From assembly GCF_019598945.1 (NCBI RefSeq), contig NZ_CP080598.1, positions 2,170,001-2,234,000 on the forward strand: 64,000 bases of DNA, written 5' to 3'. Below, in pieces: positions 35,481 through 37,586 of this stretch. The DNA comes from Sphaerospermopsis torques-reginae ITEP-024. GTDB lineage: Bacteria > Cyanobacteriota > Cyanobacteriia > Cyanobacteriales > Nostocaceae. Every line of letters starts with the position of its first letter. The first letter of the stretch is position 1. A model generated the notes under the pieces. That model had not been told where the DNA came from, searched no databases, and saw only the letters and a program-made list of their open reading frames with translations. The position numbers were made by a program, and so were the translations under genes.

Positions 35481-36368
35481 TTGCTAAATAACTACGTGCA
35501 ACATTGGCTACTCTTTAAGAAGTATACCTCAATTAAACAAATAGTCCATATCCATTTAATAAATTTCCTCAGTGTTTATACTAAGGATGAGAAAATTCTA
35601 TGGATCAAAAAGGGAAAACTGCCTCTATATCAAGGTACAGATGGTAAAAAAATTTTATATATTTCTAGTGTAGCTTTGCAACTTTCTCCATCTGATAATT
35701 CAAAAGCGAAACATATTGTCAAGTCAATCGCTGCTTATTTAGCAACTTATGGCGAGATTTTTGACGTGAAAATTGTTCCTCCTGCTTTGATTCATATAGA
35801 ACTGATTGATTCTACTTTGGCAGTTTGGTTACATAATCTAACAGTCGGTGAAACTAGCTTAGAAGGAATTGGAGGTGGGGGAGATGGGGAGACGGGAAGA
35901 TGGCCAGATGGTGAGAATTACAACAATAAATTGTTTAAAATTCAATATGCCCATGCACGCTGCTGTTCATTATTGAGATTAGCTGATCGGGAGGGATTGA
36001 TTCAACTGATAGATAATAGTACAGAAGTGCTAGGTTTGCTGTCTACCCAACCGATACCTTGGCTAGACTGTGATCAAAAATTGCGTCTTTATCAAGGGGA
36101 TGAGGTGCGTCTGATGCACCTGTTGGTAAAAATGGTGGATGATTTGGTATTCCCTGATTCTAACACTTCAGTTAACTGGATGACAACTGCACTGAAATTG
36201 AGCGAAGCTTTTGAAAGTTTCTGGTGTAATTGTCGCATCTGGGGGGAAGTGAAAATTAATTCATTGGAGTTAGCTCAGGCTAGGTTAGGATTGCTGATTG
36301 TTACCCATTTGGTTTTAAGGTCTGTATTAGAAAGTAAATTGGCAGTTTTTGCGCCTGTGGAGTTGTGA
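35481..36368 (+). CDS. Stand-alone DALR anticodon-binding-domain protein
   Basis: 295 aa. The C-terminal 130 residues look like the DALR anticodon-binding domain of arginyl-tRNA synthetase (QYAHARCCSLLRLADREGLI, LLVKMVDDLVFP, ALKLSEAFESFWCNCRIWGE, ARLGLLIVTHLVLRSVLESK). The N-terminal part resembles the ArgRS additional domain region but has no class I catalytic HIGH/KMSKS motifs. It is a known cyanobacterial orphan family of unknown function. The 35481 start is TTG and poorly supported. A Gly/Asp-rich insertion (GIGGGGDGETGRWPDGENYN) is encoded by a low-complexity GGGGAGATGG repeat. Confidence 0.7.
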   Translation: MLNNYVQHWLLFKKYTSIKQIVHIHLINFLSVYTKDEKILWIKKGKLPLYQGTDGKKILYISSVALQLSPSDNSKAKHIVKSIAAYLATYGEIFDVKIVPPALIHIELIDSTLAVWLHNLTVGETSLEGIGGGGDGETGRWPDGENYNNKLFKIQYAHARCCSLLRLADREGLIQLIDNSTEVLGLLSTQPIPWLDCDQKLRLYQGDEVRLMHLLVKMVDDLVFPDSNTSVNWMTTALKLSEAFESFWCNCRIWGEVKINSLELAQARLGLLIVTHLVLRSVLESKLAVFAPVEL

Positions 36369-36370
36369 TT

Positions 36371-36412
36371 GGTGACTGGTGACTGGTGATTGGTGATTGG
36401 TGACTGGTGACT
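36371..36412. repeat. STRR array, 6 x GGTGAYT
   Basis: Six heptamers alternating GGTGACT and GGTGATT beginning three bases after the DALR stop codon; the last coding bases (GTGATT) are in phase with the array. Confidence 0.9.
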
Positions 36413-36502
36413 GGGGAGAATAAGATATTACTCCTTGATCTCCTGACTCCTGACTCCTTCCTGCCTCCTGAGACTGCAATTGAAAAAATTTGACTGTAGC
36501 TA

Positions 36503-36531
36503 TTGACGTGATCTGACTCCTGGGATATATT
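36503..36531 (+). promoter_or_regulatory. Sigma-70-type promoter of candidate small RNA
   Basis: TTGACG (36503-36508), a 17-bp spacer and TATATT (36526-36531): near-consensus -35 and -10 boxes at optimal spacing, with no ORF behind them. The predicted start of transcription is about 36537-36539. Confidence 0.65.
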
Positions 36532-36536
36532 AGCTG

Positions 36537-36602
36537 GTGTGTGAGGAGCGAACCAGCAAGGACACCGAGACGAAACACGGCCAGTCGTCGGTGTTCTTTC
36601 TG
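36537..36602 (+). ncRNA. Candidate small RNA, about 65 nt
   Basis: The predicted transcript begins GGUGUGUGAGGAGCGAACCA. It contains a 6-bp stem GCUGGU/ACCAGC around the GUGUGAGGAGCGA loop if transcription starts slightly upstream. It ends in an 11-bp stem (36558-36568 with 36588-36598, one G-U pair) followed by UUCUUUC. Composition is clearly more GC-rich than the STRR/AT-rich surroundings. The reverse complement of its 5' part contains CTCCTCACAC, similar to the conserved core of Yfr1, but on the opposite strand, so this is not simply Yfr1. Not matched to a known family. Confidence 0.55.
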
Positions 36603-36632
36603 ATGTTTGGGTAGAAGTCAGGAGTCAGGGAA

Positions 36633-36716
36633 ATTTTAGATTTTAGATTTTAGATTTTAGATTTTAGATTGAAATTAAGAAAAATAATCCAAAATCCAAA
36701 ATCCAAAATCCAAAAT
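36633..36716. repeat. STRR arrays, 5 x ATTTTAG and 4 x CCAAAAT
   Basis: ATTTTAG heptamers at 36633-36667 and CCAAAAT heptamers at 36689-36716, both between the candidate small RNA and the HAD gene. A similar pairing is found at 46100-46130 and 62712-62765. Confidence 0.9.
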
Positions 36717-36734: not shown

Positions 36735-37586
36735 TTAAAGTAAGAATTTTTCTAGGGCGATCGCTACTCCATCATTTTCTACACTGGGTGTCACCCACGT
36801 TGCTATCGCTTTTACTGGTTCTGGTGCGCTTCCCATTGCTACACCTATTCCTGCATATTCCAACATTTCTACATCATTAAAGTTATCCCCAATAGTCATT
36901 ACTTGACTGCTTTCTATTCCTAAAATTTCTTCTGCAAGGTAACGGACAGCAGTACCTTTGTTAACAAAAGGATTTGCTACTTCTAGGAAGGTGGCGACAG
37001 AAGTTGTCATGTATAATTCTGCGGGTGTGTATTGTAAACGTAAATCACCCATCATTTTTCTAATCAAGTCTACTTCATTACACAAGGCTAAAACCTTAGT
37101 GGGGATATTATCGGTTAATGCTTGACGCAAATCACCCACAGGAAGAGGAGTAACACCACAACGTTGAGAATAGTCTGCGGTATCTGTAGTGATTTCTCGC
37201 ACGTAAAGTTGATCATTAATATAAAAATGGACTGAAAGGAGCGATCGCAAATGTGGCTGTTCAAAGTAATCTAGTAATTGATGGGCAATTTCCTTAGTTA
37301 CAGTTAAATGACGGTGAAGTTTACCAGTATTAGGGTCTTGAATCCAAGCACCCTGATAAGCTACTAATGGTAAATTAGACCTTACATCTTGATGAAAGCG
37401 CAAAGCTGAACAATACATTCTACCTGTAGCTATAGCTACTTGAATACCTTTAGCTTGGACTGCTTTAATAGCTTGCTGTACAGTTTCACTGACTTGGTTG
37501 TCATGGCCAGCGATCGTACCATCTATATCTAGTACCAGTAGCTTAATATCTTTTTTATTTTCAGCCTGATTGTTGATAGATGTCAT
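36735..37586 (-). CDS. HAD superfamily (Cof-type) phosphatase
   Basis: 283 aa. Motif I is LLVLDIDGTIAGHD (nucleophile Asp20, acid/base Asp22), motif II is VAIATGRM, and motif IV is VMTIGDNFNDVEML, preceded by the Lys of NKGTAVRYLAEEI. The C2B cap of Cof/IIB type lies between. Members dephosphorylate sugar phosphates or other small phosphoesters; the substrate is unknown. Divergent from polA across 76 bp. Confidence 0.85.
   Translation of the reverse strand: MTSINNQAENKKDIKLLVLDIDGTIAGHDNQVSETVQQAIKAVQAKGIQVAIATGRMYCSALRFHQDVRSNLPLVAYQGAWIQDPNTGKLHRHLTVTKEIAHQLLDYFEQPHLRSLLSVHFYINDQLYVREITTDTADYSQRCGVTPLPVGDLRQALTDNIPTKVLALCNEVDLIRKMMGDLRLQYTPAELYMTTSVATFLEVANPFVNKGTAVRYLAEEILGIESSQVMTIGDNFNDVEMLEYAGIGVAMGSAPEPVKAIATWVTPSVENDGVAIALEKFLL

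Follow-up and report, generated by a model that had tools for sequence, protein, structure and literature searches.

A Yfr2-type (Cyano-1) small RNA gene with complementarity to Yfr1, of a kind that is nearly single-copy and mostly fixed in position, in Sphaerospermopsis torques-reginae ITEP-024

The DNA analysed here, referred to as the window, is a stretch of 64,000 nucleotides from contig NZ_CP080598.1 of S. torques-reginae ITEP-024. Positions 36503-36610 of the window consist of a promoter followed by a structured RNA and contain no plus-strand open reading frame (ORF) of at least 30 amino acids. The only ORF of that size across the segment, an 83-aa minus-strand ORF at 36327-36578, is a mechanical one. 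An earlier note on this DNA had reported the absence of an ORF, and since there is none on the plus strand a coding role was rejected. The element lies between a gene encoding a protein with a DALR anticodon-binding domain and a convergent gene encoding a HAD-family hydrolase. It is flanked on both sides by four short tandem repeat stretches (36365-36414, 36430-36469, 36633-36670 and 36686-36716), mostly of heptamers (GTGACTG, ACTCCTG, ATTTTAG and AATCCAA), in keeping with the heptamer repeats that the same note had seen around the gene. Rfam microRNA matches on these repeats fell far under the cut-offs and were dismissed as low-complexity sequence. The features of the locus are as follows.

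35481-36368, plus strand: 295-aa ORF with a DALR anticodon-binding domain (Pfam), syntenic upstream neighbour
36503-36508, plus strand: -35 element TTGACG, read from the sequence; mostly TTGACN or GTGACA in 51 aligned copies
36526-36531, plus strand: -10 element TATATT, ending 7 nt before GTGTGAGGAG
36533-36538, plus strand: GCUGGU, 5' arm of a stem-loop proposed in the earlier note; non-conserved and probably largely upstream of the start
36537-36539, plus strand: inferred transcription start (best candidate G36539), based on the distance to the -10 element and a jump in conservation at G36539
36539-36548, plus strand: 5' motif GUGUGAGGAG, 10-nt complement of the Yfr1 core, unpaired in folds starting at 36537 and 36539
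36549-36553, plus strand: CGAAC, subtype-specific conserved extension, its GAAC able to pair with the Yfr1 GUUC beyond a single C-A mismatch
36554-36556, plus strand: lower helix, 5' strand CAG, pairing with 36600-36602 (97.4% of alignment cells paired)
36558-36568, plus strand: main 11-pair helix, 5' strand AAGGACACCGA, pairing with 36588-36598 (97.6% of cells paired)
36569-36586, plus strand: upper helix GAC/GUC with 12-nt loop GAAACACGGCCA (loop 36572-36583), the second family motif
36587, plus strand: single bulged G in the 3' strand, separated from the loop by three pairs
36588-36602, plus strand: 3' strand of the main and lower helices, UCGGUGUUCUU-U-CUG, from the alignment and predicted folds
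36603-36610, plus strand: presumed terminator tail AUGUUUGG, moderately U-rich, with a putative 3' end
36735-37586, minus strand: HAD-family hydrolase of 283 aa (Pfam), syntenic convergent downstream neighbour

A DNA search identified the element in 53 of 60 genomes, that of ITEP-024 included, giving 54 copies. This set contains the window copy, and three members (L070, L082 and L090) entered it through a relaxed pattern. The DNA search gave no match in seven genomes (G014, G038, G041, G045, G047, G053 and G054), all of which have Cyano-1 matches of their own. The promoter named in the earlier note, TTGACG and TATATT with a 17-nt spacer, is present at the positions given above. The match alone means little, because sites of this type occurred 9 times in 3 kb compared to 7.3 +/- 3.0 times in shuffled sequence; it is conservation that makes the promoter meaningful. 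The promoter scored at least 9 of 12 in all 54 aligned copies, a score reached by 125 of 5400 dinucleotide shuffles, and the end of the -10 box lay 7 nt from the 5' motif in 43 copies and 6-10 nt from it in all 54. A chance combination of promoter and hairpin was excluded by this conservation.

Conservation also points to the 5' end of the transcript. With G36539 taken as +1, identity per position across the 54 copies was 39-85% at -7 to -1 and 96-100% at +1 to +15, and with the spacing to the -10 box this suggests that transcription would start at G36539 or no more than about two nucleotides from it. For the Synechocystis RNAs Yfr2a-c, with 5' ends mapped by RACE, Voss 2009 (PMC2662882) reports a predicted lack of pairing over the initial 8-13 nt and high conservation of this unpaired 5' region. 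A primer-derived pattern based on the Synechocystis RACE positions matched none of 386 genomes.

The GC-richer stretch downstream of the promoter has a stable predicted fold, as the earlier note had proposed. For 36530-36610 the z score was -2.66 (4 of 200 shuffles as good), and with the start placed at 36539 it was -2.21 (6 of 200). In the alignment of the 54 copies, which has a mean column identity of 84%, a single long hairpin had 97.9% of its cells paired compared to 91.7% in shuffles. Eight of its 17 pairs were changed on both sides, in 59 cells compared to 16.2 in shuffles, and none of 500 shuffles scored as high. Two-sided changes occurred at 7 of the 11 pairs of the main helix and, at the outer pair of the lower helix, in 5 sequences, where the pair was seen as C-G, A-U and U-A. 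RNAalifold, unprompted, returned the same hairpin with 16 of the 17 pairs. The 5' motif was 98-100% conserved at each position in the 54 copies and the apical loop was nearly as conserved. The 11-bp terminal hairpin of the earlier note is supported by covariation, and its U-rich tail is weak: AUGUUUGG has 4 U in the 8 nt after the stem, with a mean of 4.4 in the 53 of 54 copies where the tail could be placed. A terminator scan did not list the site; the loop limit of that scan, 8 nt, excludes a 12-nt loop.

At the Rfam gathering cut-offs there was no match at the locus, and the only match in the window was a tRNA. Below the cut-off, positions 36535-36602 aligned over the whole of the Cyano-1 model (RF01701) with 37.8 bits and an E value of 4.1e-5. 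The gathering cut-off of 41 bits was not reached, which leaves the RNA outside the family by the operational cut-off of Rfam, with the structural features in common. The Cyano-1 motif has been tied to the Yfr2 family (PMC8400943), and its RF number is tabulated in PMC2864571. Members of the Yfr2 family (Yfr2-Yfr5 and Yfr2a-c) are described as having their own promoter and an abundant transcript of about 65-95 nt. The RNA described here resembles them in its own promoter, in its complementarity to Yfr1, in the unpaired 5' GUGUGAGGAG, which is predicted here if the start is at 36537-36539 as inferred, and in the 12-nt loop GAAACACGGNNA, present as the conserved central loop GAAACACGGCCA, at the top of a long stem. 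A single bulged G interrupts this stem three pairs under the loop and may correspond to the break of the family, which PMC2662882 puts at position -4. The RNA differs from the family in its upper helix, which is GAC/GUC rather than GUC/GAC or GUG/CAC, in carrying the stem break on the 3' side, and in the conserved CGAACCAG between motif and stem, a region in which Voss 2009 reports no conservation (PMC2662882). Yfr10 of Prochlorococcus is also an sRNA of the Yfr1/Yfr2 network, with its motif in a loop (PMC6778093), but it carries the Yfr1 motif, whereas the RNA described here carries the complement, most likely outside any loop. Yfr1 itself (RF01116) is the partner RNA, with the motif in the opposite sense. 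Judged by sequence and predicted structure, the locus is assigned as a Yfr2-family (Cyano-1) sRNA gene just under the Rfam cut-off. The small RNA gene with its own promoter and terminal hairpin that the earlier note had put forward is upheld, and what was there an anonymous candidate can be named as an RNA of the Yfr2/Cyano-1 type.

The genome of ITEP-024 also contains two ordinary Yfr2 copies, arranged in tandem at 956494-956738 (55 and 53.5 bits with Cyano-1). A fourth Cyano-1 match at 4144.8 kb (16.8 bits, E value 8.8), which has GAGTGAGGAG and no GAAACA loop in the stretch examined, was rejected. We designated the ordinary kind of Yfr2 A and the kind found in the window B; both labels are coined here. 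A covariance model, R1, was built from the 54 B copies. It gave 99.2 bits for the window copy, a member of the training set, and 47.7 and 41.7 bits for the two A copies of the host. Across 194 genomes of the phylum, some of them in the training set, a count by hand from the listing found 62 copies in 61 genomes with at least 74.5 bits, followed by a gap to 63.4 bits. All 61 genomes belong to the class of the window organism, and the upper group contains none from family f36, whose genomes are about 1.6-3 Mb. Subtype B was defined by an R1 score of at least 74.5 bits together with synteny with the DALR and HAD genes, both of which were found for the window copy. Of 242 genomes of the class, 149 contained a pattern for the B-kind loop, and 5 of these had it twice. 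The Rfam cut-off was passed by 5 of the 54 B copies and missed by 49, in a hand count that took copies beyond those listed as not passing.

The position of the B copy was assessed in two locus sets, which overlap in part and in which shortened loci lower the counts; the second comprises 80 listed of at least 114 matched stretches. The DALR gene had a homologue close to the RNA at 43 of 52 loci in one set and 62 of 80 in the second; for the HAD gene the figures were 44 of 52 and 54 of 80. Side and orientation were uniform, with 105 DALR matches upstream on the same strand and 98 HAD matches downstream on the opposite strand. Neither gene was found at any of 48 A loci, a control that is weaker than the number suggests since 18 of the 48 loci were short and some overlapped. 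These results indicated that the B copy stays mostly between the DALR-domain and HAD-hydrolase genes. According to the published accounts, yfr2 genes are present in multiple copies and their loci are not conserved (PMC6778093; similarly PMC1242208 and PMC2662882), with one to nine copies in varied arrangements (PMC5386190), and the segment between the Yfr2 motif and the loop lacks conservation (PMC2662882). The B copy, syntenic and nearly single-copy, departs from both descriptions. At the level of sequence, B stands out as a discrete, nearly single-copy Yfr2 subtype that carries CGAAC.

Two B loci are unusual. One (L083, in genome G051) departs from the single-copy rule, with a tandem of two B-type copies separated by about 180 nt. 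At the other (L070, in genome G015), several conserved pairs are broken by changes to the loop, the 3' strand and the 5' motif; this copy is perhaps decaying, in a genome that has three other Cyano-1 matches. The B subtype is apparently undescribed. No such subtype appears in the titles, abstract openings and passages of the Yfr2 literature covered here, and B may already have been described, for example in the main family paper (Gierga 2009). Four Yfr2 repeats are reported for Nostoc PCC 7120 (PMC6974561), and these may include a copy of the window type.

The B gene could be a redundant dose copy, a further Yfr2 RNA without a role separate from the tandem A copies, whose conservation and fixed position reflect vertical inheritance. 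B shares the 5' motif of the A copies and has a closely similar loop, and the energy of its core pairing with Yfr1 is about equal to theirs (net -15.4 for B and -15.9 for A). Against this, B is discrete in score, keeps the CGAACCAG segment that the A copies lack, and stays nearly single-copy where the A copies are often in tandem. We regard redundancy as a serious possibility, though one with the odds somewhat against it.

The complementarity of GUGUGAGGAG to the Yfr1 core, on which the earlier note had based a possible pairing with Yfr1, is confirmed. The genome contains its own Yfr1, at about 3715.9 kb, which matches RF01116 with 62.1 bits and in whose predicted fold CACUCCUCACACC is single-stranded. 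The 13-nt Yfr1 motif was present in 60 of 60 genomes searched. One genome, G009, had CACTCCTCACACC at 23 places, some of them in tandem, compared to one to three in other genomes; this excess is probably a repeat expansion, and a reversed control pattern also occurred at 15 places there. Cofolding of the RNA with Yfr1 gave a gain of -18.7 kcal/mol compared to -6.6 +/- 2.9 kcal/mol for shuffles, none of 1000 being as low. The gain was -20.0 kcal/mol for each A copy of the host. Since intramolecular structure does not enter the duplex energy, this score taken by itself did not discriminate, and 596 of 1000 shuffles did as well as the RNA. Pairing is accordingly strongly predicted by cofolding, and Yfr2-Yfr1 pairing has been published: in Prochlorococcus by pull-down and GFP reporter (PMC6778093), and in Nostoc, where a Yfr2, the copy not being specified in the passages seen, shifted Yfr1 in an EMSA (PMC6974561). 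In an E. coli assay, Prochlorococcus Yfr2 restored a reporter repressed by Yfr1 (PMC6778093).

The host genome also suggests what such pairing may compete with. The 11-mer ACTCCTCACAC occurs three times, Yfr1 being one occurrence. At a second, its complement lies just before the ATG of an OprB/SLH porin gene (L065 1500-1523, about 2034.75 kb), where the sequence GGTGTGAGGAGT contains the Yfr2 motif and ends 9 nt before the ATG. This sequence is likely a Yfr1 target site. Porins are published Yfr1 targets (PMC6974561), and the Yfr2 motif therefore looks like a mimic of a Yfr1 target site. The third occurrence, again as the complement, covers early codons of a 388-aa ORF (L067 1500-1511, about 4493.85 kb), which is possibly another Yfr1 target. 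In the mechanism that we propose, the free 5' motif would pair with the single-stranded CUCCUCACAC of Yfr1, and this pairing would keep Yfr1 off its targets, such as the OprB-porin leader with the same GUGUGAGGAG before its ATG. The RNA would in this way act as a target mimic, and it most likely mops up Yfr1.

An alternative is that the main partner, a protein or mRNAs, binds the apical loop GAAACACGGNNA and that pairing with Yfr1 is secondary. Conservation of the loop falls little short of that of the 5' motif, both subtypes have the loop in large part in common, and many other RNAs were pulled down with Prochlorococcus Yfr2 (PMC6778093), all of which would suit a loop-centred role. The 5' motif, conserved at 98-100% per position in the 54 copies and complementary to an RNA whose own 13-nt motif is in 60 of 60 genomes, speaks for Yfr1, and we consider a loop-binding main partner rather unlikely. 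Our preferred reading, which we hold to be quite probable as a whole, is a gene for a trans-acting Yfr2-type (Cyano-1) sRNA of about 64-72 nt, which belongs to subtype B and would act by Yfr1 target mimicry.

How the motif is presented depends on the 5' end. In the earlier note GUGUGAGGAG sits in the loop of a small 5' stem-loop, and a second hairpin downstream serves as terminator. The Yfr10 motif is presented in a loop in the same way. This stem-loop is the best fold if the RNA starts at 36532 (-30.8 kcal/mol), and the window copy is one of 10 among the 54 with the full CTGGT arm; yet it forms only with the earlier of the starts examined (36530 or 36532, as opposed to 36537 or 36539), and its 5' arm is placed after the -10 box but ahead of the expected start. 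The arm is variable, and the alignment lends the stem-loop no covariation excess: 59.0% of its cells were paired compared to 58.0% in shuffles, a level that 96 of 500 shuffles reached. ACCAG, the 3' half, is retained by 48 of 54 copies regardless of the sequence of the 5' half, and its CAG covaries instead with the 3' CUG. With a start at 36532, as the stem-loop needs, the cofolding gain with Yfr1 was -15.7 kcal/mol. We judge presentation in a loop to be very improbable. The anatomy that the modelling most likely supports is an exposed 5' GUGUGAGGAG followed by one long hairpin, with the motif free. The conservation in related genomes that could be expected of a real gene was accordingly found for the promoter and the long hairpin and not for the 5' stem-loop. 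That the element is simply the 3' UTR or terminator of the DALR-domain gene, which lies on the same strand about 170 nt upstream and is syntenic with it, is hardly credible given that all 54 copies have a promoter at almost constant spacing and that Yfr2 family members elsewhere have mapped starts of their own (PMC2662882).

The CGAAC that follows the motif sets B apart, and its GAAC faces GUUC in Yfr1, so that the pairing could extend to 14 of 15 positions. With Yfr1 picked out by its sequence context, all four extension pairs were possible with the Yfr1 of the same genome for 49 of 52 B copies and for 0 of 48 A copies; with G-U counted, 38 of the 48 A copies reached three. Two B copies were left out of this test, from G009 with its 23 Yfr1-motif places and from G039, where Yfr1 was identified by eye, and the A set, 48 copies in 28 genomes, is partial. 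The hybrid energy over the 15-mer was -22.4 kcal/mol for B and -18.4 kcal/mol for A. Opening the Yfr1 side costs 4.9 kcal/mol, so that no net gain is predicted from the extension (-15.5 for B compared to -15.4 for the core alone). Yfr1 reads GCU for GUU in two genomes of different families (G048 and G058), and both have deviating B copies, as does one of the other 50. This pattern is one of joint loss and not of compensatory restoration. The Yfr1 GUU is also part of the 5' hairpin of Yfr1 itself, so its conservation does not require Yfr2. In the host genome, the best match of the B model outside the three Yfr2 genes was the antisense strand of Yfr1 (3715909-3715963, plus strand; 16.3 bits, E value 1.8), which would reflect the extended complementarity and is not significant by itself.

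The extension may give B a different hold on Yfr1 from that of the tandem A copies, a weaker claim than the pairing of the core, and we treat it as a testable lead rather than a result. In its boldest form, which we offer as a speculation that is more probably wrong than right by a wide measure, cyanobacteria of many families would keep, beside tandem Yfr2, one dedicated and vertically inherited Yfr1 antagonist at a fixed place and with its own promoter, whose CGAAC would invade the 5' hairpin of Yfr1 (14 of 15 positions paired) and so lock or dismantle Yfr1 rather than mask it.

Yfr1 and Yfr2 are reported to be almost universal in cyanobacteria (PMC6778093), and in Nostoc Yfr1 controls cell-wall and outer-membrane genes (PMC6974561). 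The RNA described here belongs to a known sRNA family with a known partner and is ordinary in kind; what looks new is a positionally fixed subtype that is apparently undescribed, most copies of which the Rfam cut-off leaves out (49 of 54 by the hand count above). A fixed, nearly single-copy member of the family would offer one gene for a clean genetic test of the restraint of Yfr1 by Yfr2.
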